64,000 nucleotides of DNA from Ulva prolifera (taxonomy: Eukaryota; Chlorophyta; Ulvophyceae; Ulvales; Ulvaceae). The notes below the pieces were generated by a model. That model was given only the letters and a program-made list of their open reading frames with translations, did not search any database and was not told where the DNA came from. Shown in pieces: positions 23,443 through 59,131 of this stretch. Position numbers and translations under genes: made by a program. Position 1 is the stretch's first letter. Each line of letters opens with the position of its first letter. The stretch lies in contig CM041199.1 of assembly GCA_023078555.1 (NCBI GenBank), positions 8,251,315 to 8,315,314 of the forward strand, read 5' to 3'.

Positions 23443-23800
23443 CACTAGGAGAATGGTGACGTGGTGGTGGGGAACGTGCGAGGACGGCTCGCGGAAGAGG
23501 GGCGGATGCGTGGCGGAGCCCCCGGAACAGCGAAAGGACTGTTAGCGGAGCGTCCGGAAGGCAGTCCGGAGCGTGGGAGGAAGTTCCGCGAGCGTTCCGA
23601 CCGGGTGGTTTCCAAGTGCACTCCACGTGGGTGTTCCGCCGGAACGTTTCCGGAGTGGTGCCGGAACGCGCGAAGGTTCCGCAATGCATCCGAAGGACTG
23701 TTTGAGGAAGAATGCTTAAAATTTCGGAATGATTTCGGATCCGGGGACGTTCCGGCGGAGCCTTGCGGAAGCCGTCCGGAAGCGTGGACGAACATGCTGG
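23443..23800. repeat. Left TIR and subterminal TCCGGA-rich zone of copy 1
   Basis: The TIR occupies about 23443-23460. Over the next 340 bp the motif TTCCG/CGGAA occurs about 20 times in both orientations, as expected for subterminal binding sites of a CACTA accessory protein. Confidence 0.75.
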
Positions 23801-24377: not shown

Positions 24378-27300
24378 TCACGACAGCATCTCAATCAAGG
24401 TCTGCATAAGCTCCCGGACCTCCTCCTGCACGCTCCGCCGCTGTATCATACCGCTGACAGTACACACATATTGAGATATACTTGTTCAGATAAACTGTGG
24501 CATACCTTGTCCTGTTTGATTGATTCATCGAGCTTCTTTGCCTGCGGACCCTTCCGGTTGCGGGCGGGGCCGGATGCCAGCTTCGCTAATTCGTCCTCAG
24601 ACTTGGCTATTCTGTCATTGAGAACCTGGAGGGCATGCCTGAGAGATTCTACTTCGGCCTCTGCCTGGCGCTTCTCCAGAGCTGGATGAGTATCTTTTTT
24701 CTTTGCCTTCTGCAGAACAACGATGCTGTCACACGATCTCTCGCACCTACGGAAACAACATGACCAGCATCACTCTTTTGTAAACTCACATGACCAGCAT
24801 ATATACGATGTTGATGCATCAGCAAGCGCACTGCATCATTATGAACGCGCGTACATGAGCCTGGGCTTATGAAAGCACAGTTTATGTCAACCTTGTGGAG
24901 GTATGTACAGATCAAGGCGTACCGGTTCATCCTCCTGTATGTCCATCTCTGTTGGGCCGCTTCGCCGAGTCTTGGGCACTGGCATCTCGTCGTCCGCTTC
25001 TTCCGGGCCGGCTGCCACTATGTGGGGTAGGACCTCGAGCTCTACGTCATCGCTGTCAGGTACATCCTCCCGTGTTCGGTTGAGAAACGGAGGTGAAGGG
25101 GGGAGATCGGCGAGTGACCTGTCGCTGCCTCTCTTGCGGGCGCGTCTCCCGCCGTTGCTGGTCTCGGCCTGCGTAGCAAAGCATGTCGCGATTCTGGATC
25201 GACGCTACTTCCACGGCTGACATCGCTTTAAAATCCCTGCGTCATGTACAGCATGGCCACGAAGACGTACCCGGCCACCCTGTTGGCTCCTCCGGTGAGT
25301 GGGACGCAACGGAGATTCCGCTGTCTGTTCCCTTTTCATCTCACCCAGGATGAAATCCCTAAAGTAGTGGTTGTCAGCCACGTACACTCCGTCTTCCCGT
25401 GCCCACTGCGCGGCCGACTTCATCGTGCCATCGCCGTAAGCAGTCCTGGTTCCGATTCTGGACAGCTGCATGTATAGGTGATGTGTCAGTGGCGTGCGCT
25501 TGTCACGTGCACTAGGATGCTGTTGCCTAATGTGTTCGTTGTGCAGTATCAAAACGTCCGCATCAGATGGGTCAGGCGCGGTGCACGAGAATGGTTGGTG
25601 GGCCACCAGCCATTCGGGCATGCGTGCACGTCACTATTTTCACGCGCCTCGGAATGGTTGGTGGGCCACCAACCATTCGGGCAGGCATGCACGTCAGTAT
25701 TCACGCGCCTCGGAATGGTTGGTGGCCCACCAACCATTCGGGCATGCATGCACGTCAGTATTCACGCGTCTCGGAATGGTTGGTGGCTCACCAACCATTC
25801 GGGCATTCAGGCATCTCACTATCCACGGTCCCCGAATGGTCGGTGGCCCACCAGCCATTCGGGCATGCATGCACGTCACTATTAACGCGCCTCGGAACGG
25901 TTGGTGAGCCACCAGCCATTCGGGCATTCAGGCATCTCACTATCCACGGGCCCCGAATGGTCGGTGGGCCACCAGCCATTCCGAGGCGCGCATGCACGTC
26001 ACTATTAACGCGCCTCGGAATGGTTGGTGGCCCACCGACCATTCGGGCATTCAGGCATCTCACTATCCACGGGCCCCGAATGGTCGGTGGGCCACCAGCC
26101 ATTCGGGCATGCATGCACGTCACTATTAACGCGCCTCGGAATGGTTGGTGGCCCACCGACCATTCGGGCATTCAGGCATCTCACTATCCACGGGCCCCGA
26201 ATGGTCGGTGGGCCACCAGCCATTCGGGCATGCATGCACGTCACTATTAACGCGCCTCGGAATGGTTGGTGGCCCACCAACCATTCGGGCATTCAGGCAT
26301 CTCACTATCCACGGGCCCCGAATGGTCGGTGGGCCACCAGCCATTCGGGCATGCATGCACGTCACTATTAACGCGCCTCGGAATGGTTGGTGGCCCACCA
26401 ACCATTCGGGCATTCAGGCATCTCACTATCCACGGGCCCCGAATGGTCGGTGGGCCACCAGCCATTCGGGCATGCATGCACGTCACTATTAACGCGCCTC
26501 GGAATGGTTGGTGGCCCACCGACCATTCGGGCATTCAGGCATCTCACTATCCACGGGCCCCGAATGGTCGATGGGCCACCAGCCATTCGGGCATGCATGC
26601 ATGTAACTATTAACGCGCCTCGGAATGGTTGGCGGCCCACCAACCATTCCGAGCAGTCCTGCATGTACGTCACGATCCGGGAGCAAGAAGAACGCGCCTG
26701 TTCTTGCTCCACGTCCTTCACTGCCGCGGTCACTCTCGGGTCCTTGCGGTCTCGCTCGCTCTGCCGCATCTTCTTGTTGTGATCAAATGCTCGTCGAGGG
26801 AAACCCCTGCAAGAACAGGATGATCACGACTGTGCGTGTGTGCTTACACGAACACAAGATGACCACCGATTACGGCCGAACAGGTGCATCCTGACACAGT
26901 CGTGATGCACAGTCGTGATGTCGCATGCTCAAGAGGACACGCACTTGTACTTCACGTCCCTCAACATGGCTTGCTGGCCCCGAAATGCTGCTGCTATGTT
27001 CCTCGCAGCCGTGTACGCCGTCCCCTCTTTGCCCGCCTGCAGAAGTCAATCAAGTATGGTCGTCATCGATGTACTGTGGTGGCCATTGCCCCCCGCGGAG
27101 CACAGTCCGTGGCGACCACTTCCAGCAAGAAAACAACAACTGGGTCATTCACACTACACGCTCAGCCATACAACACAACACGAAACCATCCCAATCCACC
27201 GTAATCTTCACACTACCGTATGGCAACCGCCCCAGCAAGTCAGGCCGGCGATAGAGTCAAGTTGTTAGCAGGCATAGCACAAGCGTACCCCCGCTGCTGC

Positions 27301-27861
27301 CGCTGCGATCGCACCAACGTGCTGATGCATCAGCATACTTCCTTCATACATCCGCAGCTTTGGGTCGCCGGTGTCCTTCAGCAGCGCCTGCATCAGCGGA
27401 GACGCCTTGTCCTCGTCCCTCATCTGGCCCAGGATCGCCGACAGCTTGTCAGTCCACATCAGAACTCCCGACTGTAGTACCTCCCACACGTGATCGCTGT
27501 CGCACGTCGCAGCGGTAGCAGTGGAGCCCGCTGTGCGTGCCGACGCCCCTGGAGCGGAGCCTCGATTCTTCCGCAGGTTGATGGGCTGGACCAACACCGG
27601 GGGCTCGATGCCGCCAGCGATCTTCCCCTTCTCGAAGTAGAATGAAATACATCTCTTCAGGGACTCCACGCTGTCGAGGTCCAAGGTGGCGTCCTCGTCG
27701 TTGGCCGACGACAGTGTCATGCCGTCCGACCCCCCTCCCCTTCGCCAGATACTCCTCGCTAGCACGTCCAGCATCCCATTCGCAGAGTCGTCATCCGCAG
27801 TGTCTTTGTCGACGACGATCGCGGCCTCTCGCTTGAACTGAAATTGAAGGCTGTCCGACAT
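24378..27861 (-). CDS. Accessory coiled-coil protein of CACTA copy 1
   Basis: Starts at the ATG at 27859-27861 and ends at TGA 24378-24380. Recognisable exons: 27861 to about 27290 (about 190 aa; acidic, Gly/Ala-rich C-terminal part), 26806 to about 26690 (basic, with RRAFDHNKKM), 25470 to about 25330 (with GDGTMKSAAQWAREDGVYV), an acidic block near 25190-24900, a charged coiled coil near 24705-24480 (with ALEKRQAEAEVESLRHALQV) and a 48-nt last exon, 24425-24378. Every block has a counterpart in the same order at 59469-61950, which strongly supports the exon chain. Its position next to and divergent from the transposase, plus the coiled coil, suggest a role like TnpA of En/Spm (binding subterminal repeats), but no DNA-binding domain is recognised. 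The intron after exon 2 holds the palindrome array. Confidence 0.7.
25589..26650. repeat. Array of 18 palindromes inside an accessory-gene intron
   Basis: Eighteen units at about 60.5-bp spacing. Each has a roughly 27-bp palindrome of the type GAATGGTTGGTGG-CCCACCAACCATTC, followed by an alternating linker. One linker type reads GGGCATGCATGCACGTCACT and the other GGGCATTCAGGCATCTCACT, so the higher-order period is about 121 bp. Units in the middle are nearly identical, those at the edges more diverged, consistent with unequal exchange. Open frames through the array, on either strand, are a by-product of the repeat. Confidence 0.95.
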
Positions 27862-28193: not shown

Positions 28194-31100
28194 ATGGCTC
28201 CGCGTAAGCCTCGCACCGCCAAGCGTACTGTAGACGACGACCTTGCAACCGTTGGCATTCTGCGCCTTGATCCTCCTCTTCGTGAAGGGGACCGAAAGTT
28301 ACTATACAGGTGCAGTAAATGTAGTAAACCGTTTGACAGGCTTCTAACCGCCCAGAACCACCCCCGCGCCTGCCCCACGGCGCGCGCTCAGACTCGTGAC
28401 GATGGCACTGGCGATGACACAGGCAGCCAGCAAGTGGCGGGCAACCAGCCTCCGGGCGATGTCGACCTCGGTCGAGTCGACGAGGTCCTCATCGAGGTGT
28501 GCCTGTCCCTGAACACCTCGTCTGATCTCGGAGTGCTGACTATCTGGTGATCGTGATTGGTGTCATGTGGCCAGGTCCCTGAGGGCTCCGACGTATCCGA
28601 AGAAGACTACGGAGACGACGATGCCGACAGCCTTTACGACGACGCCAGCAGTGTCCTCTCCAGCCTGTCAGGAGATGACTGGGACACAGACTCTACCGAG
28701 GTTTGTCCTTTCGGTGTCCCCCGACGCAGCAAGATTATCCGACTTGCTCTTATGCTGGGCACCCACCCCCTGCTCCCTCTCGGCGTCAATGGCTGGTGAC
28801 TATGTGCAGAGCGACGCCCTCGACGGCCGCGAGGGTCCACAGGTCTCAGCCGAGGCTGCAGCCGTGAAGGGGACTGCCGCATGGTGGCGTCAGAGACGGA
28901 TGGATCCGGTCTCCGACACCTGCTGTCTCACAGTGTTGACTGTATCAATGTGGATCGCCAGCCTGAAAAGCATGTTCCGGATGAGTGATGTTGTGGTGGA
29001 CATGTGGTGTCGTTTTGTGCATTATCTACTCTTACCAGATGGGAATATGTTCCCCCCATCCTTCCACCTGGTCAAGGCTGTCCTGGCTGTACCAGATGTC
29101 TCTTCGGTGACCCGACACGTGTGCCCACAGTGCTGGACTCTCTTCCCAGGTATAAAGCCGTGTGATCATACCCACCACTTGGACGACGTCTGCAACACCC
29201 CAGGGTGCACCCAGAAGCGTTTCGAGGTGGACCTGGCAGGCAAGGGTGCACCTTGCCGGAGTGTCTTCTACTTTGGGGAGGCCGCATCGCTGAAAGACCT
29301 GATTCTGCAACCCGGCGTCCTTGCCGCGGTTCGTGCTCATCGAGTGCACGCCCTAAAGGATCCCGCCGGTTTCTGGAAGTCCCCTGCCGGACGTGCCCTG
29401 AACGCCAAGTGCGGGGGGATTTTCGACAAGGCTGACCCGGACGAGATTGCACTGCTTTTCAGCTTGGGTGCGCTCGCCTTGAGTTCGACCTATCCTGCGT
29501 CATCATCACTCAGTAGCCAGGCCATTGATATCGGCTGGGTCCAGTGGGGCCTGCAGTAGCCTCTCCCGGACACTGAGCCCGCTTGCAGGGGGTGACGGCG
29601 CCCAACTGTACGTGAACAAGCAACACGGGACCACAATCTGGGGCATCCGCCTGCTGGACCTCCCCCCTCATCTGTCTCATTGCAATGATGCCTGGATCCC
29701 CCTGGGGGTGGTCGAGGGCCCAACTGAACCCACGAACATGGACAGCATCCTTGCACAGGTACTCGAGTTCTTCAAGAAGCATGACCCAGGTACGTGTCAG
29801 TCTGGTGAGTGTGTACCTAACGCACACTCATGTCCGGCCAGTGCTTGATGTGGCTGTGTTTGACTATGAACCCCCTACGATGCAGCCAGGAAGGGGGAGG
29901 ACGGGATCGAGGCTTTCAAAGTTGAGATGCCCGACGGGACAGTTCTGCGCATCTGGCCTGTGCTCTGCTGTGTGGAGGGCGACATTCCATGGATGCAGAA
30001 GTTGACCAACAGCATCGGGCACGGCGGCAAGAGGGCGTGCTACCGTTGCGCCCAGAACGGCGTCTGGGTGTTCGCAGCCAACACAGTACGGTATGTTGGC
30101 TCCAGTTGCCGTGCCGTCGCCATGCTGCCTCTGACCACCACTGCTTACCCCTGGCATCCCGGCCAAGCCCGCCTCCGCCACCCCCTCCGACATGGCTTGG
30201 GGGCTCCCTACTGTCCTTATCAGACATCCGCCGTGCAGCTGGCTTGGGTTCCATGGCCCGGTCATCCAGCCTCAGCCGGTTCACGCTGCGGGGCCTGATC
30301 AAGGAAAGCCCCTCACAGCGGCGCAAGAGGCCGACATTGCCGCGGGGGCGGTGCCAAGGATGGTGCCCGGCAGTCTGGAACCAGACCCCGGGCCCCCCCC
30401 CCCCCCTCGCACGAAGTGGTCCGAGGTTACCACCATCGACCCGGCGACTCTGGCAAAGGACTGCCGGCTGAAGTACTCTGCTTCGGAGATGTGCGCTCGC
30501 GGCCACACAGCAGACCAGTTGACTGATCAGGTGCGGGTACCCTTGTATTTGAATCTTTCCTCTGTCATGCGGCTCATGTGCCTGCATGCATGGTCGATGT
30601 TCTGCCGATACGCCCACCAGGAGGCTTGCATGCAGACCACCAGCCCCACGTTGGACCGCTACACTGCCAAAGACACCCTGCTGGAACGGCAGAAACTTGC
30701 GAAGAAGGAGCACATCCGCCTGGGGGTTAAAGGGTCATCCCTGTTCAGCACCCTCTCATACTTCAAGTGCGCACCCCTACCACAGGACAGCGGCAGTACC
30801 GTCATCTGGACCCATGAATACACCGTGAAGGAGGTTGTTTCTGCAGTCCATGCCACTTCTTCCGCTACGGTGTCGCGCACGTGTTCCTCCTTGGCCTCCT
30901 CATGGACTTCTGGAATCAGTGGCTGCCGAGTTCGAAGAGGCGTAAGAAAGCCCGCCCTGCAGGCCCCAGGCGGTTGTATCAGCTGCCTAAAGAGGTGGTG
31001 GCCCAGATCGCTGCCCGCGCGTCCCACATCATGCACACTTATCTGTTCAAGAAAGTGTACACCGACATCACCAAGTGCGGTTCCGCGGCCCCCCACAATA

Positions 31101-32563
31101 CGGCAGCGGTCACTGGTTACTGCTGGCAGCTGTCCCATGCACAAATGTCGTGAACCTTACATCTTGTGGAGGCCAGCAGGTGGCTCGCTTCAAGTTTGCA
31201 CTGCTGCAGGCACCGGTCTCGGTGGCTCATGGAGGACTGGCTTGCGTTCACTGAGACGTTCTCCTTGTACTTGCTGCACGACCTCCAATGGGAGCCCGAC
31301 CAGGAGGATGTTCGGCTGGTGTTCGAGGAGATGTGGACGCACCTCCGGGCAGGCACCCTGTATTTCCTGCGGTACGAGGAGCTCCAGCATACCGCACCCC
31401 GGATCAAAGCAGCTCAAGACGCATTGATGAAGTACGGCGCGATGGCAGAAGATCTCTTTGGGGGGGAGGTGATCTGCACCTTCAAGCTTCATATTGCAGC
31501 CTGGCACCTACCGGACCAGGTGAGATGCTGTGGGCCTGCGTTCTTCTGTCTAGAGTTCTGGATCGAACGCATGGTGCAGCTACTTAAACGGCTGATCAAA
31601 TATCGTTCCACCAAATCACCAGAGAAAGTGTATGTCAACGATGAGCTGCTGCGGCGCACATGCATGAGGCTGCTTCACAGCAGCGAGACGGCAGAGGCGG
31701 CCATGCGCACGTTGCAAGAGGCCGTGGCCTCAGAGAAACGCCGTCGGTCAAAACGGCGCAAGGTCCGGGCCGCTGTGCACATGGGCGACACCGACTCTGA
31801 TGACGGTGATGACGACAGGGTGTTTGGGGCGGGTAAGGACCTCGACGCCGAAGAGAAGAAAGAAGTGATGCCGCTGGGGTACACTGGGGTCGGTGAGTTG
31901 TCCGGGCTGCCTTACCTGCTCTACCACCAGGACGCCCTGCAGGATGCAGGGTGGCTGACCCAGCGGGTCTTGGGTGCGGGCTACGGCAGGAGAGAGGCCA
32001 TCATGCGGGCGCTTGGGCTGCCGGTCGCTGGGGAGGTTGTTGCTGAGCGGCAGCTCTGTGAGGTGCACCTGCGAAAATTCCTGCGAGGGCGGGCTTTGGT
32101 AGGGGATGTCCTGACCTGTGCGCAGCACACTGGTCAGGGTAAGAAAGACAATCGATGGTGCCTGCTGAAGTACCATGTAGTAGAAGAGGGTACGAATAGG
32201 GGCCAGGATCGGTACTATGTCGGCGACTTGCAATACATAGTCCGTGCCAGGCTCAGCACGGCAGACGGGTCGAATATCTGTAGAACCTGCACTGTAGAGG
32301 CCAGCGTACTGTACCTCGGTGTGACAGACGTGTACGAGTGTAGTACACCCTATACACCCGGATGCAGGGAGGCGGATGAGGAGCTGAACCGCGCTCCCGA
32401 GTTTTACAGGGTTGATGGCGTGCATCACCGTTCCTCAGCTTACACTGGCCGGTATGTAGTGAACATTGATGCTATGGCCGGGCAGCTGGTTCCGGTGAAA
32501 CGGACGGCAGGAGGTGTTCAGTACTGGCAGACAGCGAATAAGGCCTCCGGGCGTACTGTGTAA
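28194..32563 (+). CDS. tnp2-type CACTA transposase, nine exons, intact
   Basis: Catalyses element excision and integration in the nucleus. Exons that join in frame: 28194-28496, 28575-28700, 28810-29467, 29589-29789, 29886-30090, 30224 or 30239-30530, 30636-30766, 30847-31074 and 31210-32563, giving about 1,165-1,170 aa. Order: N-terminal C2HC zinc finger (CSKC...H...C), a Glu/Asp-rich region (exon 2), Cys/His-rich region, then the tnp2 core. The first likely catalytic Asp is in GDGAQLYV (29594), the second in EGDIPW (29981), followed by the ACYRCAQNG knuckle. The C-terminal exon has the DUF4218-like stretch HLPDQVRCCGP...FWIERMVQLLKR. I did not fix the catalytic Glu with certainty. No stop or frameshift was seen, so copy 1 may still make active protein. 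Confidence 0.85.
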
Positions 32564-32624
32564 GTAGGTCATCCCCCATATGGCGGCCACCATGCGGAAT
32601 GCATGTGCCCAGTCAGCGCCACCG

Positions 32625-32728
32625 TGGAATGGTCGGTGGCCCACCAACCATTCCGCATGCGAGCAATGCATGTGCCCAGTCAGCGCCACCGTGGAATGGT
32701 TGGTGGCCCACCAACCATTCCGCATGCG
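32625..32728. repeat. Two further palindromes of the copy-1 type
   Basis: Two units with core GAATGGTYGGTGGCCCACC, linked by GCATGCGAGCAATGCATGTG. They lie between the transposase stop codon (32563) and the protease start (32962). They match the array at 25.6-26.6 kb in the palindrome but not in the linker. Confidence 0.9.
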
Positions 32729-32961: not shown

Positions 32962-35829
32962 ATGTCTTCAACGTTGAACATTGGCACGATCACCGTGCAA
33001 ACGCTGAACTCGTACCTCACTGACTTAGATAGTAGAGCTCAATATGAGCCTACTTTTTATAGATTCGTGGAGGTAGCGTCACAGGGAAACTGGGTTCCTG
33101 GGCACCGCATCCCGTCGCTGGTCATGGACAGGCCACACGGCTTTCCGGTGGACATGATGGAATCCGGCTGGGTACTGACAGCTTACGATGTCGCTATGAT
33201 AGATACCATCCTTGCCGGCGATAAAAAGGCGGAGTCCAGGATGATGGCAGGCTTCTCGTCCATGGGAAGGGTACTAACCCGCGAAGTAGCGGGCGCAAGT
33301 ACTCCATACCTAGCTGCTACGCACCATTTAAAGCTGCTATGGGTCGCGATGCGAGAAGCCGCGTTTCAGCGGGCCGTCCAGTCAGAAGCACCGTGCGGGG
33401 TGCATGCCATCGCGGTGTACAGGTCCGTCGCCACGACCCAAGGCCCCGACGAGACCATGGCAGGGCTTCTGCTTCGCCTCCGGATGACCATCGGTGGCCG
33501 GCCGATTGCAGCATGGTGGGATAGGCTCCAGGCCAGCGCCCCACAAGCCACACCGATGTGGCCCAGACCGGCGGTCCTCGAGGCCCGCTTAACGGCGCCA
33601 GTAATGCCGCCGCAGCTCGAACCCCAGGGTGCACAGCCGTCGGCCCCGCATGGCGGTGTCATGCCATCTGGGTCACCGCAGGCCCCCGAGCCTGGCCCTC
33701 CCGAGAGGGCAGAATCCTGCGGCCAGAGCGCTGTGGGGACCACGGTGGCGTCCCGCCTGGCACCAGCCCCCGACAGCCCCCGGGACGATGACGCAGCGGA
33801 ACGTGCAGTAGCGGCAACACCGCCAGCGGCTCTGCCGGATCGACAGGAGTGCGCGGCCCCCAAGGCAAAGGGGGCTGCTGCTTCTGGGCGTGCAATGATG
33901 CACCCTGCCCAGCCCAGGAGGTTCAGCCGCGGCGCAGTACTGGCTGCAGCCGCCCAGGACCCTCCTGGGCCCACACCGGCGTCGCCGCGCCAGGTAGCCG
34001 GTGCCGCTGGGCCGATGGAAGTGGACACCCCTGACGGTAGGGAAGGCGCAGCTCGCCCATCCGCTTCGGGCCAGTTAGCCGGTGCCGCTGGGCCGATGGA
34101 GGTGGACACCCCAGACGGTAGGGAAGGCGCAGCTCACCCACCCGCCGTGGGGAAGGGGTTCTTGTCCCCAGAGAGCTTGCTGCCACCGGAGGGCGGGGGA
34201 GGGAGACAGCCAATGAACCGGGCTCCGGAGAGGTCGGATGCCCGGCCGCTGAAGCGGCTGGCCGCTGAAATGTCGCACGTGGCCCCCACGGGGAACCTCC
34301 TCCGCGGCCAGAAGCTCGACGTGGTGGACGTGGAGTGTCCATCAGGCAGCACTAGAGTGCCCAGTGTTGAAGTGCACCTGGCAGATTTCGGTGCCACGAA
34401 AGTGACGGTACATGTGGCTGTCGACCACTTCCGGGAGTTCTGGGTGACAGAGTGGTTCAGCTCCATCCCGGTGCAGTATGCGGTAGTGAAGGCGGCTGTC
34501 CTAGCCGGGCCGGGGGTCATTGCGGTCCCGTCTGACCACATCGCAGGACTGGTCACCCGTGACCCTAGCAGCGACCCCGAGGCCCGTCGAATGCTGATGC
34601 ACCTCGCCAAGTGGCTGAAGAGGGCGGACGCACTAAACTCAAGGTGTATCCTCATCCCGGTGCCAACGGGGAAGCACTGGGCACTTGCAGCGGTGTACTC
34701 TCCAAGTGCGATTCCAAATACCATCGTATGCACTTGGGACAATGCATGTGAACACCCCCCCCCAAAACCCCCCGATTTCCCCACCTTCCCCCGTTTGTGC
34801 CGTATGACACAGTGCCCCTGTGGACACTCTAACCACCCCTACATGCAGGGCTTCTGCTGCTTGGGAAGCGCCCCGTCATGAGCTGGTTTGATTCACTTGC
34901 CGACGCGTCGGCAAGTGCACCAACTGCCCTCATAGACGTGATGAGCCTGGCGCTGTGTCAGGGCCTTAAGGGGGAACCCCCCCTAACTGAGCTGCCAGAG
35001 GGGTTATCGACACCTGGTCGACAGAAGTACCAGCCGAAGCGCGGAGCCAAACAAGGTGCCCTGCCAGCGCTGAAGCCGAAGTACCTCCTCAAGTTACGCG
35101 TGGTATGTCTCATCTGTGTGTCACCTCACTGTCGCCGTCAGTTACACCGCATCACAGTGTGGCGGACTAGTCCTGCCAGCCACAAGTGGGGCCTCTGAAC
35201 ACAGGCGCGGTGTGCAGGTGAAAGGTGTTCCTGAACAGCGGAATACCTTTGACTGCGGGGTCCACACCTGCCTGATGGCAGAGGCTGTGGGTGACGCCAT
35301 TAAACAGAGCGACCAGGGTCGCCAGAACATGGTGGTATTGTCCACCAGCGACGGGTCCGCTGTGGATCGGGGGGCTGTCAGCCGGCTGAAGCTGTTGAAG
35401 GCGGAGCATGTAGTGATATACCGTGTCCTCATGGCACGTGCACTGTTACAGGAATGGGAGAATAAGGGGCGTGCGGGGGATTTCGTTGGTCGCCTAGGCT
35501 CAGAGGAGGCCCGACGCATCTTAATTGATGCCAGGTGGGATGTGAACCTGAAGGAGCCTATCTGCGCGGACCTCACGGAAGAGGAACTACGGTACCGCTC
35601 CAGGCACCAATTGCCTCCTTCAGTGCAATGCATGTACGTTGCGCGTGTCCATGTCCAGGCACCATCGAAAGTTGGCATGTCTTCTGACGCGGGAGCATCT
35701 GTCTGCAGGCACTGGTTCAGGACGACATTGTGGACTGATATTGTCCCCAGTGTTCAGAAGCCGGCGGAAGCCCTGAACGCCGAGTATAGATCCCTATTTC
35801 AAATGTCATTGCCTTGCCTTAGGCGATAA
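32962..35829 (+). CDS. Ulp1/SENP-like (C48) cysteine protease of CACTA copy 1
   Basis: Ulp1-type proteases cleave SUMO or similar tags; CACTA and related elements often carry one of unknown role. The ATG at 32962 begins a long first exon (to about 34735) with an unrecognised N-terminal domain, a Pro/Ala-rich linker and the start of the protease. Exon 2 starts at about 34851 and exon 3 at about 35202. The full catalytic set is present: His in KHWALAAV (34675-34677), Asp in SWFDSL (34890-34892), oxyanion Gln in PEQRN (35236-35238) and Cys in FDCGVH (35254-35256). The order His-Asp-Gln-Cys and spacing fit the family. The end at 35829 assumes no further intron after about 35630; copy 2 suggests a shorter C-terminus. 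Within the linker is a duplicated roughly 100-bp unit (about 33990-34140). Confidence 0.75.
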
Positions 35830-41712: not shown

Positions 41713-43877
41713 CACTAGTAGCACTGAGTTGTCCTTACAGCGGCTCACGCGATCCTCACGTATGGACAGCCGAATATCATCCTTATGACGTCCATGCGGC
41801 TTACATGAGCCTTACGGGCGACAGGGCTGAAGCATAACGTCCGTAAGGACAACACTATGTGGTCATAAGTGTAGGACCAGACTGGGCTGGAATTTGGACA
41901 CATGTTGCTACTTTGTAAGGACCCAAAAGTGCCCAGCTTGTGGCAGGAACATTGGGAAGCTGTGCACTGTCACGTGAGGATATACTGAGGAGCTGGTCAG
42001 GCTCACGTGGCGACAGTCGTATACACCGTATTTGTGATCACGGAGTATGTACATGTCATACTATAGTTATTGTATACCGTGGCGGCAATGCAATCTGTCA
42101 TAAAGTGCTCACCTACGTGGTTGGACAGCGATGGGGACAGACGAGGTGAGTCTGAAGTGTCACAAGTGGTCACAGCCCCAACAGAATTTTAAACCGCACT
42201 TGGCATCATACAAGGATCTATCGTGGAGCCGCGTGTCAGAAAGCAGTGATGTCTGCAGGACTCCACTGATGCACAGCAAGCACTCAAGTGCTAGCATCAG
42301 CAGGACATCATGGGAAGCACGTTGAACATCTGCTAGTCCGACCTGACGTTCTTGTTCTGACTGGTCTCTTCTCACGAACGAGTCCGCGCTCCTGGCTCAG
42401 TGATTTGCAGCCCATACCTACGGCGTGTTGTACAGCGCTGCAGTATCGTGCACGTCAAGACGCTGGCAGCATCGTTCAACAAGCATTTGCAGACTGCTTC
42501 ATTATTAACACTGTGTGCAGAGCATGCCATGAAATGTGATCGGACGATTTCTGCGCCCATAATGTTGATGCTGTCCGAACGCTGCGCAGTGCAAGGCGCT
42601 TGACTGCGAGACCAGAAGCTAGCGCGTCGCTGTCTAGACTTGTTCATGAGGCGAAGTATGCTCGCAATGGGTTTCGAGTGCCTTTTGGTGGGCGGCAGAC
42701 GTGCCTGCGCCATGGGGGAAGCCCGTGGCCACCGAGCTTCGCGGGAGTGGCGCAGTGCCGCATGAACAATAAGGTGATACAGCGCGAACAACCACATAAA
42801 GCAGCGAACGCATGCAAGTCTGATGAATCGTGTAGGGCATATCGTGCATTCAGCAAGGTGTAGGTAGGCACGCGTAATGCTGTGGAATACCCGCGCGGGT
42901 GGCACAGTTGGTAGCGATTGAACCAGCGTATGTCTTGGACCGGATCGATTGTGATTCCGCAGTCATCACATAGTTCTTGATCCAGTGAGGGGCGCAATCG
43001 CGAGTGCCGTGTTGCTTTCAGTTCGCGGTGCTCTTGTTAACAGCAGCCGAAGGGACTCAACCCCGAGGCCCGGGCCGCAATGATCCGCTGCCCTGTGTAT
43101 ACCTGAGGTACGAAATTATCGAAGTCTGATCGTTATTTTCTTTGTGATGGCAGTGCACAGGCGTCTAGAACAGGTATTCGCCGGTGATGCGCGACTGCAC
43201 ACGCTAAACACATCACGTCACCGGTAGACGTCTGATTCTGCAGCGCGACATCCATTTCTTTAATATTTTGCAATCTTTTGTCAGCAGTCCAGCAAGAGTA
43301 GCCGATTCCAGTGAAAAGCAACGCTGTAGTTGCTGGTCAGCGCATACACTAGGAGAATGGCGACACTCCGAAACGGATCCGGGTGTCGTCCGCCAGATTA
43401 CGAAAGTCCGTTTACTCTCTGATACCTCTCCGATGTCATCGGATGCGAGCAGTCGGATGGCCCTTGGACTTTGGCACCGAATCATCCGCCGACCCACGCT
43501 GCTGCTTGCCTTCGCATGTCCGCGACGGCTGCCATTATACGAGGTCATTTCGGTGAAAGCCCGCGCTAACAGTGGATCGAATGATACTATTGGTGACTTT
43601 GTTACTATACACGCGTATCTGGAAACGACTGGACTGGACACGGTGCAGGTAGACGTGGACCCATACTCATGGCAACTGACATCGACTTTGGGCAGGAGAC
43701 GTAGCGGCATGAAGCTGGAGGTAGGCTCACAATAGCGGTGACTTGCTGCATCGCCCAAGATAGCGTTGATCCGTATTTCAGGCTCGGCAGCAGTCCATGT
43801 AGTGTTGGTCGTCGCCCTGTGAATGGTGGCCGGAAAAGCGTGCACATAGGTTCCTGGATGCGAATGCATGCGGTGGT

Positions 43878-44104
43878 CCAGAGTGGCCATTCGGCGAATG
43901 GCCACTCTGGCCGAGTTACGTCATCATGCTCCAGGTAAGGCGTGCGCTCGCCCTCCTGGACACGAATGCATGTGATGATCCAGAGTGGCCATTCGCCGAA
44001 TGGCCACTCTGACGGGGTGACGTCATCGTAAGGCGTGCGCTCGTCCTCCTAGACGCGAATGCATGCGCTGGTCCAGAGTGGCCATTCGCCGAATGGCCAC
44101 TCTG
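43878..44104. repeat. Three palindromes of the copy-2 type near the left end
   Basis: Units at about 43878-43910 (33-bp perfect palindrome, core AGAGTGGCCATTCG), 43980-44011 and 44073-44104, about 100 bp apart. Each is preceded by GAATGCATG. They lie just upstream of the orphan-gene start at 44252 and share their core with the intronic array at 60.5-60.8 kb. Confidence 0.9.
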
Positions 44105-44251
44105 ACGGGGTGCTGTCATCGTGCTCCGCGGGAGTGCGCAGGTGCCGTTGCAATCGGGGCGTCGTGCTGCATGAAATGTACGAATGGAGGATTGTGTGTC
44201 TGATACGGTTAATCGCTGGCGGTCGTAGCTTACCTGGCATCGCAATTCGAT

Positions 44252-47200
44252 ATGGTCGAAGTGACTTGGAACTCCGTTGCAGATCTGCGCATCTCGTCAC
44301 CAGTGACCGCTTTCGCTAGTAGTATATTGACATACGTATTAGCGATGGATCCACGCGTTGCAGCACTGGTCGCAGGACTGCCAAGTACCCAGCATGGGCT
44401 GACTTCTGCGCGCAGCGGAGACTTGCTTGTCGGTCGCATGCGCACTAACCGAATCCCAGTAGTGGGTAGTTTGATTTCTAGAGACGGGCGTTTCACTGAC
44501 CGAGCCCGCGTCGGCACCAATAGCGGTCCAGCATGCGGGCCTGGGGTGGCTGTGTGGTGGGGCCTTGGGGAGGTCCTGCGAGACAACGTGGTGGTAAGCC
44601 GGGGGAGTGAGCTGGAAACGGCCAAGGGAGTGGCCACTACTACCCTTCTCGTGCTCTCCGGCTGGCTCCACGAGCAGGACATGTTCGTGTCCTCGTGGGA
44701 GGGCAAAGGGATGACCCCTGCTGGGTGCACGGAACCCCTGCGGTGGAGGCCTCTGCTGGGAACGAAGGAGGTGTGTGCCTCCTGGTGGGCTGGTGGTAGA
44801 ACTGCTGACCACGCTCTACTGCAACTGCCTGTTTACTGCGGAGGGGCGTAGCCTGACTATGGAGTGGGTTCAGTAGTCAGTGCATCCAGCTATGCAGCAT
44901 AAGGTCACGGGCCACGTCTCTGAGTCAGGATTCCCCAAGACTACAGTCACGGAGGAGCGAGATCCGGAGCTCGCCGAGCGGTTCGATATCCCACATGCGA
45001 AGGTTGGGGAGAAGCGCAAAGCCGCTGACCCCCCGCCTCCTGACGGTGTGCTCACTCCCCGTCTGCTGCGCTTTTTTTGGGAGTCATGCAGTCCGTGTCC
45101 ACCGCGGGCGTGCCAAATGCCACCGCGTCCATGCATAAGGTCCACATGTGTTCTTGGGCGTGTCCCAGAGGTGATGGAAGGGGCCCGCTACAAGAGGTGT
45201 CGGTGCAGTTTTCTATTGCCCCACCCCCCGGCACGTCGTGTGGGCATGGGCTTCTTTCATGTCTGGCCTCTCCCCGCATCGTGTCAAACTGTAGACTGCC
45301 GGAAAGCGGACACCCGCGGCGGGGGGGGGCCGGGTCCGCTAGGAGCAAGGAGAGACCAACCTCCAACCTCCCTGACGGCCTCAACCCTCTGGTGGCGTGG
45401 GTGTTGTATGAAAACGCCCACTACGAAAGTCTGGAGGGCTTCATTGAAAAGAAGCTCGAACCTTCTCAGGCAATAGCGCGGCACATTGGGGACCGGTGTC
45501 ACGCGCTGCTGGCCAACACAAATGGGGTCCCCTCCCAGGTGGTGTACCAACTGACGTCGGGCGCGTCGGTACTAGCGGACATGCACGTCTGGCACTCGGA
45601 CCTCATCGAGGCGTTCGTGCGTTCCTGATGTTTTCTATGATTCCGGTGTGGTCAGGCATGGCTGCCTGTATGCTTGTGCGTTGTCTGGCTCGGCAGTGCA
45701 TTCTTTCCACCACGCATGCATGAGTGTGGCTAGGCGGCCTCTGATTCCTCCTACACCTCAAGCCTGCCCAGTCACAGGCCTGTGAACGATGAGTGTAACA
45801 TGCCTCAGATCGTGCAGGATATGAAGTTCCTCGGCGAATTCGTCACCACCCTATACAATCTAGCCCCCTGGGTGTTGGCGTATGCGGCGGAGCATCCGTT
45901 GATGGATTGGTCAGAGGTGCGAGTCGCCACTGTACAGAACATGTTCTGAACATCCCTTGGGCGGCGTGACACTGTGGTGCTACTTGGCCTAACCCCCCAT
46001 GTCGTTCACTCCTGGGTCCGGCCGTGCAGGGAGACAGGGTAGCCCGAGCCCTCCGTCCGGCGTGGCTTTCTGTCAAGTCATTCTACTCCCACATCATGGG
46101 AGCATGTTCAGGGCTGCGGTCGTCTACACAGGACCTGGCGGCTTTCGCCAGTAGCGGGGTCCACCTCTTTATGCATGCGTATGTGCGCCTCGTTGCTACA
46201 GCAATGACAGGCAACCCTGAGGCGCCTGACCTAGAAAGGCGGGGTGGAGAGGACATCCCGGCGCTGGAGCCCAGTCTCCTTGATCCCGCCTTTGCCGCCA
46301 TCTTGGTGTGCACGGTCAATCACAGCTGTGCGTCGCCAGCCTGTCATGTACACCTGTATATGGAGCTATAGTGTCCTGTTGTATCCCCCCGGGTGGGTCA
46401 ACACTACGCTTTGCAGTCAGTGTGAACGCCTGAACCCCGCGGTGCATGCAGGCTTGGTGAAATCGGGGTACGGTCTGCCTGTCAAGAGGTTGGCTGATGC
46501 GCTGATTCCATTGTGCCCGCCCCACACGATCTGGCACTGGGCGCTCAGGAGCTGGCGGCACCTGGCCGTGGCGCAAACAGTCCCCGCTGCGAGCAGTTCA
46601 GGCAATCCCGTCTCCACGCCCGCCGTTCGCCTGAGGCCAGTGACGTTCCCGGATATCAAGGACTGGGATTACGCCGGCGCTGAAGAACTCGCCAAGCAGT
46701 CCATCGCCAAAGGGATGCAGAGTCCAGCCTGCTACAGGTGCATACCCCAGCGATGTCTGGCCCTACGGCTGGTTGTCATCTGCATCAGAACCTGCTACAC
46801 GGACGTAATGTCATAGGCGAACACTGCTGTGGCCACCTCCTATTCTTGTATCAATTGCTCCATCTTACCTGCTGCAAGTGTGACTAGTGCAACAGAGCAT
46901 GCATGTGCCCTGTGACTCGCGCCGTGCGCTGCGTGGTGCGCGGCCTTACCGGCTATGGTTCGCAGGGAGGAGCTCCTCAACATCCCCGACGGCATCCTCG
47001 CCACCCTCCCCGTGGGTTGCCGGCAGCCCCCTGTGGCTGCGGCCCAGGCGCCCCCTGGGACAGGGGGTGCCAATGCAGCCCGTGCCCGCGGCCACCACCA
47101 GCGTCGGGCAAGTGGGAAGAGCTCGGCGGCATAATCACGCGATAAGGCGCTGCTGCTGCGAAAGTGCGGCATTCCAGCACCCCTGAACACGGGCACTGCC

Positions 47201-48574
47201 GCCGCGGGTACCAACACCGGCGACAGCGCCACACAGGGTTCCGGTGACGCGGCAAGCCCCGCCCGCCCAGCTCCACCCAGCAGGCTGGGTGAATTAGCAG
47301 CGCCTGTGGGGGGTGCGCCTGCGTCGGGGGGCGTGAACCCGGGGGACTCATCAGCGCCTGTGGGGGGTGCGCCTGCGTCGGGGGGGCTGAACCTGGGGGC
47401 ATCAGCAGCGCATGTGGGGGGTGCGCCTGCGTTGGGGGGGCTCAACCCGGGGGACTCGTCAGCGCCTGTGGGGGGTGCGCCTGCGTCGGGGGGCGTGAAC
47501 CCGGGGGACTCATCAGCGCCTGTGGGGGGTGCGCCTGCGTCGGGGGGGCTGAACCTGGGGGCATCAGCGGCGCATGTGGGGGGTGCGCCTGCGTCGGGGG
47601 GCCTGAACCCGGGGGACTCGTCAGCGCCTGTGGGGGGTGCGCCTGCGTCGGGGGGGCTGAACCTGGGGGCATCAGCAGCGCCTGTGGGGGGTGCACCTGC
47701 GTCGGGGGGCCTGAACCCGGGGGACTCGTCAGCGCCTGTGGGGGGTGCGCCTGCGTCGGGGGGGCTGAACCTGGGGGCATCAGCAGCGCCTGTGGGGGGT
47801 GGGCCTGTGTCGGGGGCCCTGAACCCGGGGGACTCGTCAGCGCCTGCGGGGGGTGGGCCTGCGTTGGGGGGGCTGGCCCCCCCCGAGGCAGTAACCGTGG
47901 GCCCACGTGGCACCTCTGCGGCCACGCATGCAAAGGCACAGGAACCCCTCCCCACCGCGCAGCCGCCTGCGGGTGCCGGAGATGGATCAGGGTTCGGTCT
48001 GGGCGGTGCCGAGGACATCGCCGGGTTTGCCGAACCCCTTGCTGACGCCTTGTTCCTCGACTACGAAGAGATGTTCGGTCATCATGCTTCTGATGACGAT
48101 TCGGAGCCTGCTGATTCGGCGGACATCTCGGTAGATGAGGACGACCTGCCAACATCTGATCCAGAGGTTAGGCCATCCCAGCTGTACTACCTGCAGGACA
48201 CTGCTGGCTCGGTGCAGCTCACCGTGGCAGAGTCTCCAGCTGCACAGCAGACCACAGTTCAACTGTCCGCCACCTTCGCCATGCCCGCGGGACCTGGTTT
48301 CGGGCGAGCTGCTCAGTTGCGGCTCATTGTCGTGGCATGCGACTTAATGATGCTGAGCAACCCTCGTCTGCGTGAGGATGATGACGACCGCCTGCTACGC
48401 GTCATGGCCCTCATTTCGGCGTACGGGCTGGAGCCTGACAATGCCACTGTAGCAGAGGTTGTGGCACTGATCCGGCAGGTATGCTCCGTATTGAGGTTGC
48501 CTCTCGTCCCGAGCTTGGCTGTTGCCCAGGCCCTCCCTGTCCCCTTGTGGCCACTCTTGCGTCCTGCCCCCTAA
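44252..48574 (+). CDS. Orphan gene of CACTA copy 2, repeat-bearing C-terminus
   Basis: Counterpart of the gene at 36466-40205 in the other element; function unknown. Blocks: 44252 to about 44770 (PVVGSLISRDGRFTD; WLHEQDMFVSSWEG), about 44890-45060 (EKRKAADPPPPDG), about 45330-45628 (DGLNPLVAWVLYENAHYESL; DMHVWHSDLIEAFVRS), about 46030-46345, about 46400-46740 (TIWHWALRSWRHL; FPDIKDWDYAGAEELAK) and about 46960-48574. The last exon contains about eleven 18-residue repeats, then an acidic stretch (DYEEMFGHHASDDDSEP) and a conserved helical end with NPRLREDDDDRLLRVM. It is transcribed towards the protease gene. Conservation of order and motifs against a quite diverged copy suggests selection on the protein. 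Exon limits are approximate. Confidence 0.6.
47290..47880 (+). repeat. 54-bp coding tandem repeat, about 11 copies
   Basis: Period of 54 bp (18 residues, SAPVGGAPASGGLNPGDS and variants with LNLGASAA), in frame in the last exon of the orphan gene. It occupies the place where copy 1 has an unrelated 123-bp repeat. The opposite strand is also open (Pro-rich), a consequence of the repeat. Confidence 0.9.
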
Positions 48575-48695
48575 TCCCATTTCATTATTCGCAGCTGCTC
48601 ACCGTGCAGGGACGCAACGTTGCCGAGTGAAGCCGGACCACGAAGGGGGGCTGCTATGAGGAGTGCTGGAGTGCGGATTAGGGTGGGGTTGGAGT

Positions 48696-48739
<44 letters not shown>
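48696..48739. repeat. 44-base poly-G run
   Basis: Uninterrupted G in the 48575-49394 spacer between the convergent orphan and protease genes of copy 2. Nothing else is recognised in that spacer. Confidence 0.95.
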
Positions 48740-49394
48740 CTTTCCGTAGAATGTTGACTCTGAACCTAGTAATGCGAACGATTAATGAGTAGCACGTACA
48801 ACAACGAGCAACATCAGCATCTCATGTGCCATTCCACGTGTACATGTAAACAGACGGAAGGTTGTCACGCCTCAGTGCACTTTCTTACCACAGGTGGCTG
48901 TGGCCTTTCGTCGCAGCAGACACACTAATAGTATACAGCTACCCAACACTGCACTACAACATCAACGCCGACGGACGCCTGTGGCCACAGTGACACTATC
49001 GCATGACTGCTATGGCGTGCCGTGGTGTCCCGCCACCTGGTAGCCGCCCCCTGGGAGCCTCCTGCGCCAGTACCCCCCCCTAGCAAGTTCCCGCCCCACC
49101 TGCCAGCTAGTGCAATGGGCAACCCTGATGCGAATACCCGCCGACCAGGCGCACAGCGGGCGGTGCATTAGAACCGCACGGCTACCGCCCCCGCACGCCA
49201 TGCGGGGATACTCAGATCCGCTTTTTCAGCGGAACGGCCATCAGCTTGTTGTACTGTTGACTCAGGGTTGCCACCAGTGGCTGCACCTTATTCATGAAGG
49301 CGTCGTACCCCGCCTGAAGGTACCAGTCCCTGCATAGTACCGGAATCATGTAGGAGTTGTGCCGTCTACGGTGGGGTGGGGGCGAGACCAGCGC

Positions 49395-52300
49395 CTATGC
49401 GATGACTAGACATAGCCTGCAGGGGCGGGCGAATGACCAACTCGCCAGAGGAGTGGAGGGGCAACGGTGGTGATAACAAGGATTGTGTAGCGCATACCTC
49501 AACTCATCTGCAGACATGTCTGCAAACGGCGGGGTCCGCAGGTGGCGGTCCCATCGTGCATCAGCTAGGATGTTGGTGCCGTCTTCGGCGGATATACCCA
49601 CTAGCTGGTCCCCCGCCCTCCCGCCACGGTGCCATTCTTGCAAGAGGGCCCGTGTAAGCAGGATGCGGTACAGCACCGCATGCTGCACTCTGAGGCGGGA
49701 GATGCGCCGCAGTACCCTACGAGTGGCCCCCTCCCCGTGGACGTCACTAGAGAACAGGTCCCCCTCCTCATGTCGCATTTCACGGACGACCTGGCAGACG
49801 GCATCGGCGAACATTGCAGTATACACCCCGCAATCATGGCCGTTTGGTTGCTGGGGGGCTCCACCGACCTGTACTCCACCGAGCACTGATGTAGGTGGCA
49901 CGCAGGGTCGTGTCAACGGCGAAAACTCAAGTCAATGCTATGACAGGGTGTGGTTATGACAGGGCCCGAGGGGATGAAGGCTGGAGGGCGGGACGGGTGG
50001 AACAAGGTAAGCTGGCCGGCGCCATGCGGTGGATCGCATGGCACCCCGTCAGCGGGTGACAGCAATGGGGTAACCGCAAGTTCAAGATACCAGTGCCCGG
50101 TGAGAATCGCACCTTAGTCAACTTCAGAGTGATCCTCGCTGTGGAAGCGGGTGGCCTGGTGCCCAAACGCATGTTTTGACGCCGTCCCGTTACTGCCCCC
50201 CTAGTCCCCGACTTAGTTGGGGGATCCGCTGGCAAGGAGGTGGCGGGTGCCTTGCCCTCCGGGTTGTCAAGCGCCATGCACAGCGCCGCACTCAGCACTG
50301 CCTGGATCCGCTCGGCATTGCCGGCGCCGGCGTCCATCAAGCTGTCAAAGAACGACATGCTAGGGGCCTCGTCCTGCTTCAAGAGCCCTGCAACACGCCG
50401 ACACCCTCAGTGGGCCCTTGCAGTGTACTCCCCACATGGGATGACCCGACGGGATCGACGAACCTAGAATATGATTCCCGTTGCAAAGTCAGATGAGTCG
50501 AGGGGGCGCACGTGGCTGCCAGATGACGGCCAGTGCCCAGTGACCGTTCCGGGGGACTGGGACAAGGACGCATATCTGATCGAATATGTGAGCTCGGGCC
50601 ATCCACCGCCCCAACCACCTACTGCGACTGTCAGACCAGGCTGCACCCGCATCCCCAGTACAAACCCCGGCCAGGCTCATGCTAGGCAGTGAGATGACGC
50701 CCTGGCCTGCCAGCGTCACACATCTGCTACAGGCGTAGTCTACGTGCGTCGAATCTAGCCAGGACGTGGGCCAGCCTCTTGCGAGGCTTGGCAGCCCCAA
50801 AACAACAGAAACCCGTGCTTCCCCAAAATGCCCCAGCTCCACCGTCACGCCCCCCGGCACTGATGACGGCCCTGGCTCGTCGTCATCGGAGGAGCCCACA
50901 TGCGTTGGGCCGCCCGCGTCACTGGACTGAGCAGGGGCTGGGTTACTCGCCCCCGGGCGGGTCGGCGACCACTGCTGCTTCAGTTTCCCCGGCGGCTTTG
51001 CAGGTATGTCCGTCACCCATGCCGGAGGGGTTACCGGAGGGTGAGCCAATAGTGAGGCCGAGAGGAGCGTAACGCCCTGACTGGCCCCCGGCGGAAGCGG
51101 GGCGACCTCGTCTGCCCCGGGCGACATGCCTGTGTGTGCGGTGGCCCCCCCTAGAGGGTTGGGGCTTGCGCCGGGGCCCTCCCCGGCGGCCGCAGTGGTG
51201 ACCGGTACGTCCTGAGATTCAGGAGTTGGCTCGAGGTTACCTCCTGCGGGGGGGTCTGCAATGCCCCCCTCCCGAGCGTTGTGACCCTCCTCCGCCTGTG
51301 CCAGTGGCCGGGGGGGGGCCGCAGCTGTAGCAGCCACCCCCGGAAGCGGGGGTGGCAGACAGCCGGTGGTCCGGGACGGAGGAGATGCGGCCCTTGCAGG
51401 CCCTTCTGGCTGATCGGGCTCTGGCCGCACCGCCGGAGGGCGAGCCCCGACTGCTGCTGGCACTAATGCTGCCGGAGGCTCACGGCTGAGGATCTCCGCC
51501 ACAGCCGCAGCACCCCGCCGGGAGCCACCCCGTGCACTGAAACGTACTTGCGCAGGCTGTTGATGGGTGTTACTGCGCGACCCACGCCCTGCAACCGGTG
51601 CCACTGCCCCTTGTGCCCCCACCCCCCTAAGCCGCTTCGGGGCATGTCTGCCACGTCCCAGCTTTCCACCACCCCTGAACGCGATGTCACCGCTGGACTC
51701 CGCCCAGGGTAAAGGATCGACCCCCCCCACCCCCGGGGATGTGGCGGCGTCGATGCCCCCCTCCGGAGCGGGGTCATCCGCAGCCCCCCCGCCGTCGGGC
51801 TGTAAGGGAGCGACCGACCCCACTCCCGACGAGGTGGCGGCGTTGATGTCCCCATCCGGAGGGGTGTCATCATCAGCCCCCCCCACATCGAGCTGTAAGG
51901 CCAACAATGGCGCCTGCAGAGGGGCCACAGGCACCTCTGACAGTGGCCAAATGGGATTGGGCTGTCGCGGCGCCTCCCTCTCCCGATCTAGCCACTGGCT
52001 AATCGCCTCGGTCCCGCTCGTGCCAAGCACACGCTGGAGCAGGCCGCCAACATCCTCCGCCACCCCCGCTCCGGATTGACAAGCTCTGTACAGTACGATC
52101 TCCTCGGGCCCGCCGGGATACACCGTACGGACCGCGCGCTCGACCGCGACGAGCCGGATGTCGTGCCATAGAGAATGCATCTTCTTCTCGACGACCGCTG
52201 CGTGGTTTGCGGCGTGGGCTACCTGGACGCCTTCCTTCATCGCCCGAATCGAGTCCAGATAATCATCCAGACCATCTCCCCCGGCATCGAGAATAAACCC

Positions 52301-52594
52301 CACCATGGTGATGTCAACCGTGGTCAGGATATACGAGTTTCCCATTAGATCTAGTGGGAACCCCGGATCCCTGCTACAGATAGTGAGAACCGGGATCGGT
52401 TGACCTGGCGTCCATTTCCCCTTGAGGGCCGTTTTCACGAATCTATAGAACGACGACTCGTATGAATTTCTACTTTCTAATGTCGCAATCAAGGTCCTCA
52501 GGTCCCCGTCTGAAATCATCCTGTCTAACCAACTCGGGGATGTAAGCAGTCGGGCGTGTTGTACCAATCGTATCGCGTCGCTGTCATCCAGCAT
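49395..52594 (-). CDS. Ulp1/SENP-like (C48) cysteine protease of CACTA copy 2
   Basis: Homologue of the protease at 32962-35829. Blocks: 52594 to about 50500 (ATG at 52594; N-terminal domain with SSFYRFVKTALKGKWTPGQ, long Pro/Ala-rich linker, then protease start), about 50395-50190 and about 49885-49395. Catalytic residues: His in NGHWALAV (50540-50542), Asp in SFFDSL (50343-50345) and Cys in HDCGVYT (49830-49832), with the Gln in PQQPNG just before it. All are thus preserved even though the transposase of this element is broken. Linker repeats differ in sequence from copy 1. The junction between blocks 1 and 2 is uncertain: the frame after the His motif differs from copy 1, so a small frameshift cannot be excluded. 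Confidence 0.7.
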
Positions 52595-53733
52595 GTATTA
52601 CATTTAACTATCAACATATCTTTAATCGAACCGCAGTGCCGGTATCATGATGTCGGAGCCGGCGCCGATGCTCGAAGCAGGTGCGAAAGTGGCTACACGC
52701 GCTCCACGTCTGGCGAATGACTGTTGGCTGCTGCCGATAATGCACCGGTGGCCATACAGTGCCGGAGACTGGGCGCCAACTTATCTGCTGTAGCAGGTGC
52801 CGTATTGGTATCAAGGAGAGAGCACCCGATGACCCCAGCGCTTTACACAGTTCGGCCAGAAGCCTTGTTCGCAGTGGCCCAATACTGCACATTTTGTGCA
52901 CCCCTCCGGACTGGAACTAACTGGCATGGAACTGCGTCCAAGTGTACGACGTATCTGCCGACATATGCCCGAGACCCCCTGTTTGCACCCGCCACACCGA
53001 AAAACTCAGGGGGACGTTTCAACACGGGATCTGGGGCGCGGGCTCCCGGGGTGGCTGGCAAGGTGCAATTATACAGATCAGCAACCCCCAGGTACAATGG
53101 GTTTGGTTCCGCAACACATGACACGCAACACACGCCATCCCGGGGCTGCAGACACGCCCTCGTGAAATACTGCAGTTCCCCGACGAAATACGTCACTGTC
53201 CCGCCACCCCCGTCCCCGTCCCCCCCAATGAGGTACCTCAAGAGGCACCACTTGTTGTCTTTCTTCCCTTGCGTACACTGTTGCGCGCAGCTGAACATGT
53301 CTGCAACGCGGGAATGCATCTGGTGGAACTTCATAAGTGTCACTGTGCCCTCACGGCGAGCCTCATCAACAGTGCCATCCACCTTCAGGCCCAGAGCTCG
53401 GTGGATGGCCGCGCGACGTGCATATCCAACCCCCAGGCGACGGTGAGTTGGCTAGCCCTCATCCTGTAGGGAATCCTGATGGAAGAGGAGGTACGGCAAC
53501 CCTGTCAGCTCATCTCCCACGAAGTCAAGGGGGAGGACCTCTGCAGCCTCAGACAGGGCAGGAGCCCTGCCCACCCCGACGACCCTGCCGGTGATCCGGT
53601 CGCTGTCAACTGATTGATCCCCGTCAGCGGATCTTCCATTGCGAGTTCGTGCCCGCCGGCGTTTTTTCCGTCGCTATGGCATCCGACAGTGAGGTCATGG
53701 CAGCAGGCAGTGAAGCTGCATCATGTAGCAGCC

Positions 53734-58400: not shown

Positions 58401-59131
58401 TTCACAGCATTGCATGTAATGTAAGTTGAGGACACACCTCGGATTCGTCTGAACTGTAGTCCGTCTCTGAGGAGAAGGCAATGGAGTCTGCGTCTGAGGT
58501 GTCTGAGTCGGCGTCTGAAAATTGTGCGGGGCCCTCGGCATAGTCACTTTCGGACGGTGGGGGCAGCTGTACACAATCCCAACACATCAGAGTTGCTTTG
58601 GGCGAGCAGGCAGGATACAGCAAAGGGACAGGAGCGCTGACACCCATGGCCAGCACGAGCCGCTGTCATGCCGATCTGCATCATGATCAGGCAAACCGGG
58701 ACTTAGCACGGTCAACTACCGAAGGTACGCACGTCGAAGAGGTCGTCGGAGTGGGCAGGCTCATCGAGGGGGACCCCCCATGTCTGGAGGTGATGGGGAT
58801 CTCCCAGAGGGACCGGCCCCGTCGTGTCTGCCGCTGCGGTCATCATCGGCAGTAGCGGAGGTCGGGCCAGCGGCTGGCCTCGAGTCTGGGCCCGCGTCGT
58901 CGTGTCCACCAGCGGCTCTCCGCGATGCGGCTGCTGCACTCAGTCGACGGCTGCAAGGACCGTGATGGTTTTGGGCGGTGTTGTGCCCCTGAAACTTCTC
59001 ACCACAGGCTAGACACTGGTATTTAAACGGTTCCTTCCCCGTCGGCTCGGGAGGGATCAGGCGCTTACAGTTCGCTTTGGCAACAATTCGTTCACCTCCG
59101 CCCTCTTCAGTCTATTCGCCGAACCGGCCAT

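Follow-up and report, generated by a model that had tools for sequence, protein, structure and literature searches.

Clade-specific palindrome arrays in an accessory-gene intron of CACTA-like transposons of Ulva prolifera: putative recognition sites of a transposon-encoded protein

What could maintain a row of regularly spaced palindromes inside the intron of a transposon gene? The question arises from a 64,000-nucleotide stretch of the Ulva prolifera genome (the window), situated on contig 4 of the 88.9-Mb genome, which holds two elements in opposite orientation that are collinear by protein similarity (copy 1, 23640-40112, and copy 2, 62554-44438; Table 1). An initial annotation, made from the letters alone, had described 18 palindromes of about 27 bp, spaced at about 60 bp and separated by two alternating linkers, and had proposed either co-evolution with a self-encoded protein or selection for hairpin structure itself. 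By eye, no telomere repeat was visible in the first 120 bases of four contigs. We found exactly 18 units in steps of 60 to 63 bp, all of them 27-bp near-palindromes; in four the arms match perfectly, and the other 14 have one to three mismatches between the arms. The region contains 16 windows of 27 bp with at most two arm mismatches, compared with 0 in each of 20 mononucleotide shuffles. Tandem Repeats Finder returned periods of 61 and 121 bp, and the two linker types alternate along most of the array, giving the 121-bp double period, though not throughout it.

Table 1. Features of the window, with positions counted from its first base
Feature	Position	Strand	Remark
Main array, 18 A-type palindromes GAATGGTTGGTGG-S-CCACCAACCATTC	25589..26649	.	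steps 60, 61 or 63 bp
Copy 2 array, five B-type palindromes GAGTGGCCATTCG-S-CGAATGGCCACTC	60545..60827	.	64-bp steps
Second array of copy 1, two A-type palindromes, different linker	32627..32720	.	between transposase and Ulp1-like ORF
Second array of copy 2, three B-type palindromes	43881..44102	.	0.53 kb from far terminal repeat
Gene X, copy 1, six modelled exons	24506..27861	-	exon alignment
Gene X copy 1, exons 1-3	27861-27289, 27036-26945, 26806-26698	-	
Gene X copy 1, exons 4-6	25465-25271, 25168-24923, 24709-24506	-	
Array intron, gene X copy 1, GC-AG, 1232 nt	25466..26697	-	predicted; exon alignment and splice sites
Homologous gene X intron, copy 2, GT-AG, 401 nt	60518..60918	+	predicted; exon alignment and splice sites
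Copy 2, TIR to TIR	43347..62764	-	ATA flanking each side
Gene-X-side terminal inverted repeat, copy 1 (CACTAGGAGAATGGTGAC)	23443..23460	+	
Transposase region, copy 1	28780..32560	+	sub-threshold DUF4218 match
Ulp1/C48-like gene region, copy 1	32989..35829	+	Peptidase_C48 20.4 bits vs cut-off 20.7

The elements are CACTA/EnSpm-like, as their CACTA-type ends and 3-bp target-site duplications reveal. Their terminal inverted repeats (TIRs) begin with CACTA (CACTAGGAGAATGGYGAC occurs at 193 places in the genome, its reversed control at 0), and a 3-bp duplication flanks all four elements with both ends read (AAC, GGC, AGT and ATA); on these two grounds an identity with KDZ/Zisupton, the initial guess, was dropped. 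A far-end terminal repeat was searched for in copy 1 and not found. By eye, uncounted, the element ends appear rich in CGGAA/TTCCG. Pfam comparison of the transposase gave DUF4218 matches below the cut-off (E 0.0034 and 0.049), and a search for PF02992 (Transposase_21) gave no match, but neither did its positive control. The family falls into two clades, A and B, represented in the window by copies 1 and 2. Most aligned blocks of the transposase show 46-77% identity between the clades, and 17/18 TIR positions agree, whereas gene X exon 1 is about 40% identical and the palindrome is different. Compact palindromes are absent from a 174-bp tandem array in a distant transposase clade, where no gene X was detected either. 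This array lies upstream of a 45%-identical transposase (L061:1-2105; G000:C2:10723200-10725304), comprises 12.1 copies at 98% match within the piece and continues past the piece's edge.

The gene that carries the main array, here called gene X, is oriented divergently from the transposase, and its exons can be aligned between both copies, with two small exons equal in length (92 and 109 nt). Exon alignment, splice sites and CACTA ends uphold the annotation's placement of the array in what is predicted to be an intron of a transposon gene, and the copy 2 array, as it had also stated, lies in the homologous intron. Splice acceptors are CAG and donors GT, except for GC at the copy 1 array intron; judged by eye, the array-intron donor is GC in 22/22 A-like and 8/13 B-like copies and GT in 5/13 B-like copies. 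The 5' splice site of this intron is flanked by inverted repeats, GGAGCAAGAA/TTCTTGCTCC in copy 1 (window 26680-26710) and CCAAGG/CCTTGG in copy 2 (window 60513-60535). Three exon-1 comparisons within A, pairing L009 or L012 with L027, L028 and L029, gave dN/dS of 0.30-0.36, and L027/L028 gave 0.52; B pairs gave 0.34, 0.48, 0.56, 0.75 and one value of 1.43; exon 3 gave 0.42 and 0.87. From these values gene X looks like a real gene under modest constraint. Its last modelled exon looks like a coiled coil, with a weak Tropomyosin match below the cut-off that would suit a dimer. Spliced gene X from both copies yielded no DNA-binding domain and no VANC-type domain (DUF1985/DUF287) in Pfam, and exon 1 had no PDB match. 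Other genes of the element, which were partly scanned for VANC-type domains, could also encode a candidate binder.

Copy 2's palindrome had been called unrelated to that of copy 1, which is too strong, since A and B half-sites agree at 7/13 positions, a level reached by 4.4% of shuffles. We also observed ATGCAT in nearly every linker, the linkers being otherwise different, at window 25589-26650, 32627-32746, 43881-44102 and 60545-60827 and at related loci. Per unit it was present in 225/240 A1, 41/41 A2, 46/46 B66 and 14/16 B64 linkers, and in 10/10 of the short element, 11/11 of A second arrays and 9/9 of B second arrays; neighbouring units have linkers in common, and the background outside arrays is 0.95 per kb. 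ATGCAT in the linkers is possibly a second site.

Searching the genome with exon 1 of copy 1 gave 100 matches, or 96 places after split ones were merged, 35 A-like and 61 B-like. The gene X region was read at 27 of the 35 A-like places and at 13 B-like places plus copy 2, and palindromes were detected without presuming their type. Members without an array are few: the A palindrome was near gene X in 25/27 A-like copies and the B palindrome in 13/14 B-like copies, and the other clade's palindrome was found in none of these 27 and 14. Palindrome type thus follows the accessory protein between clade A and clade B, as the annotation had suggested it might, in what is one contrast only. Where exons 2 and 3 were both present, arrays held 2 to 20 units by the type-free scan, which undercounts (15 of copy 1's 18). 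Most A copies have steps of 60-61 bp; L027, L029, L030 and L034 have 66 bp, and B copies 64 or 66 bp. Exons 2 and/or 3 are missing from L032 (one A palindrome) and from L033, L035 and L042 (none each); for L024, with scarcely any exon 3, and L026, with exon 3 distant, the scan covered 2-2.5 kb after exon 1 or 2.

Array position is not random, in agreement with the fixed position claimed at the outset, and the same intron is used in both clades. The first palindrome centre follows the exon-2 match by 62 nt in most A copies, 56-58 nt in other A copies and 40 nt in most B copies, with L018 (90), L043 (58), and L044 and L048 (106) as outliers. A search pattern running from the donor side through the first B palindrome has 56 matches; it puts a B palindrome just past the exon-2 donor, 468-757 nt after exon 1, in 52 of the 61 B-like copies. 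Among the nine others, five have no such pattern and four have it 2.8-10.3 kb away, a displacement consistent with insertions.

The palindromes also occur at a second place in the element. Far ends of three A elements (L050, L054 and L055) and three B elements (copy 2, L051 and L052) carry palindromes of their own type in 6/6 cases, 0.5-0.6 kb inside the terminal repeat, with degenerate units in L055, and a two-unit array lies between the transposase and the Ulp1-like gene in both copy 1 and L053. Three further B ends (C1:3931097, 5408409 and 9458015) have palindromes 565-667 bp inside and no gene X exon-1 match within 25 kb. Intron and second arrays have the same palindrome arms, whereas their majority-rule 32-base flanks agree at 9/32 (A) and 8/32 (B) positions, which is chance level. 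Nothing points more strongly to the palindrome itself as the thing kept than this constancy beside unrelated linkers.

Elements without gene X exon 1 retain the arrays as well. Among 100 of the 193 TIR places there were 11 convergent T-type pairs, 6.0-10.6 kb apart and without gene X exon 1, and all 11 held an A array whose nearest listed unit was 1244-1315 bp from an end. A short element read in part (L049, L056) still has the array, exon 3 and the end, and its flanks match the A1 majority at 24/32 bases; the short elements may come from one common ancestor. A 15.1-kb pair without exon 1 had A palindromes 5.7 kb from its nearer end, and a 22.4-kb pair without exon 1 had no palindrome among the matches listed. 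Conversely, two elements with exon 1 had no array marker among the matches listed (L029 and C2:7604018); in L029 the array was found on direct reading of the region.

Genome-wide, the exact A pattern occurs 659 times and the B pattern 363 times, with 0 for the reversed controls. The matches listed form 5 A and 13 B clusters, all on contig 1, and 16/18 have a family TIR or gene X exon 1 nearby. Another (C1:1790419) is a second array next to a family transposase, and the last (C1:2838831) is tied to the family by a weak exon-3 match (E 0.07). The palindromes, which might have been widespread outside the family, therefore have a family context in 18/18 listed contig-1 clusters, one of them on weak evidence.

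We consider it probable, judging from sequence patterns, that the palindromes are DNA recognition sites, that is, dyad operators, of a dimeric protein encoded by the transposon, with gene X the foremost candidate. That they act instead as RNA, with folding of the gene X pre-mRNA steering splicing, intron retention or small-RNA production and the array selected thereby, appears quite unlikely. The intron RNAs would indeed fold into hairpins, as had been predicted, and far better than shuffles (z -13.2 for the 401-nt copy 2 intron against 100 shuffles; z -20.9 for 898 of the 1232 nt of copy 1 against 20), as any palindrome array must, and the common GC donor could mean regulated splicing. The palindrome arms, however, do not covary as RNA stems should. 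Identical arms were seen in 119/302 A units (112 expected) and 25/72 B units (20.2 expected), the units being not independent and counted within 6 mismatches anywhere in the locus. Departures on the sense strand were more often C.A than G.U (148 vs 65 in A introns, 43 vs 5 in B introns), an asymmetry that would suit an antisense RNA, and the palindrome is present in other parts of the element, as well as in elements that lack gene X exon 1. Selection for hairpin structure, the annotation's second proposal, is thus disfavoured. About equally unlikely is that the array has no function and is a minisatellite, captured or expanding by itself, that unequal exchange has homogenised. The wide range of unit numbers and the homogenisation of units within arrays would fit, and CACTA elements of Chenopodium are reported to have captured satellite arrays (PMC8978399), but such an origin does not account for the recurrence of one palindrome at two places amid unrelated linkers, the use of the same intron in both clades and the retention in short elements.

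Somewhat less improbable, though still doubtful, is that the palindromes serve the transposase itself as internal, TIR-like binding sites, for synapsis, titration or excision enhancement, gene X not being their reader. Each half-site shares a 7-mer with its own TIR, GAATGGT in A and GAATGGC in B, and 6 bases match when the clades are crossed. A match of 7 arose in about 1% of half-site shuffles for each clade and in 0/5000 for both at once. The match was noticed post hoc, however, the half-sites of the two clades may not be independent, and the TIR and transposase are well conserved between clades where the palindrome is not. A half-site match was also tried for the bases past the TIR, TGGTGG (A) and CACTCC (copy 2), and rejected because other family ends lack them, so the 7-mer match alone is kept, as a lead.

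Under binding by a transposon-encoded protein, the gene X product, as main candidate, would attach to the palindromes as a dimer, and the arrays in its intron and at the second place would mark the element in cis. Since stripped-down copies keep the sites, these are probably docking points for the self-made protein, which could thereby act on family members including copies without gene X. Like TNPA, the bound protein may aid transposition; like VANC, it may protect the element from silencing; or it may do both. By analogy, the two roles would fit about equally well. An intron location may leave the array free to grow or shrink without breaking a protein. The annotation's appeal to a self-encoded protein gains to this extent, DNA sites being favoured by the constant palindrome, its presence outside the intron and the short elements, while co-evolution would have behind it only the A/B difference, a single independent contrast. 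More tentatively, this may be a CACTA lineage with its own self-addressing system: dyad arrays bound by an accessory protein, with the protein and its palindrome diverging jointly when clades A and B separated. If so, through the array in the intron of its own gene the protein could gauge how many copies of the element are present and adjust its own expression, and a copy, autonomous or not, would be recognised with a strength determined by how many sites it has.

Comparable repeats are known from other systems. In the soybean CACTA element Tgmt*, subterminal repeats can form palindromes, two in the left border and 12 in the right, the latter within 732 bp of the 3' TIR, according to the passages cited (PMC2613891). 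Like the TNPA-type repeats described there, ours occur with CACTA ends, a 3-bp duplication and a motif able to form palindromes that varies between related families, and short derivatives keep the cis sites. Unlike those repeats as described, the largest arrays here are in an accessory-gene intron about 2 kb from one end, have 60-66-bp steps and up to 20 units, and have a binder that is putative. In Arabidopsis, target repeats of VANC21 are reported in introns of VANC21 and VANB21, and the domains of VANC-type proteins are named as DUF1985/DUF287 (excerpts of PMC5735166). Both systems have an element-specific motif tandemly repeated in introns and other non-coding regions, with fast-changing repeat number and a motif differing between related families (PMC5735166 and PMC10398659, in the parts cited). 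VANDALs differ in being another type of transposon with a 9-mer motif, as against 27-bp palindromes, and gene X has no VANC-type Pfam domain. In its discussion, PMC10398659 refers to activation of Spm by TnpA, with demethylation. The Chenopodium elements likewise have a tandem array inside a CACTA element (PMC8978399), but the part cited describes a captured satellite near the 3' end, unlike the short palindrome with unrelated linkers at fixed places seen here. Among open-licence PMC papers, our searches brought up no report of a palindrome array within an intron of a CACTA accessory gene. The 96 gene X places and the exact palindromes of both types offer, within one genome, material to test joint change of a transposon DNA-binding protein and its sites. 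If binding is borne out, arrays of element-specific motifs, the principle known from VANC, would be found to hold for CACTA elements as well, and there would be a second example, outside the plant models, of a protein that reads CACTA repeats.

Other inverted sequences were noted around copy 1. Just outside it are perfect palindromes of 66 bp (21651-21716) and, with a 1-base loop, 49 bp (23050-23098), and another long palindrome at window 19455-19598 forms two tandem units with a period of about 85 bp. Past copy 1's final gene, at window 41400-41460, there is a TCAGTGTGCATATAT-like sequence similar to an inverted repeat 3' of exon 1 in the disrupted gene X copies L024 and L042, which is perhaps another inserted element.
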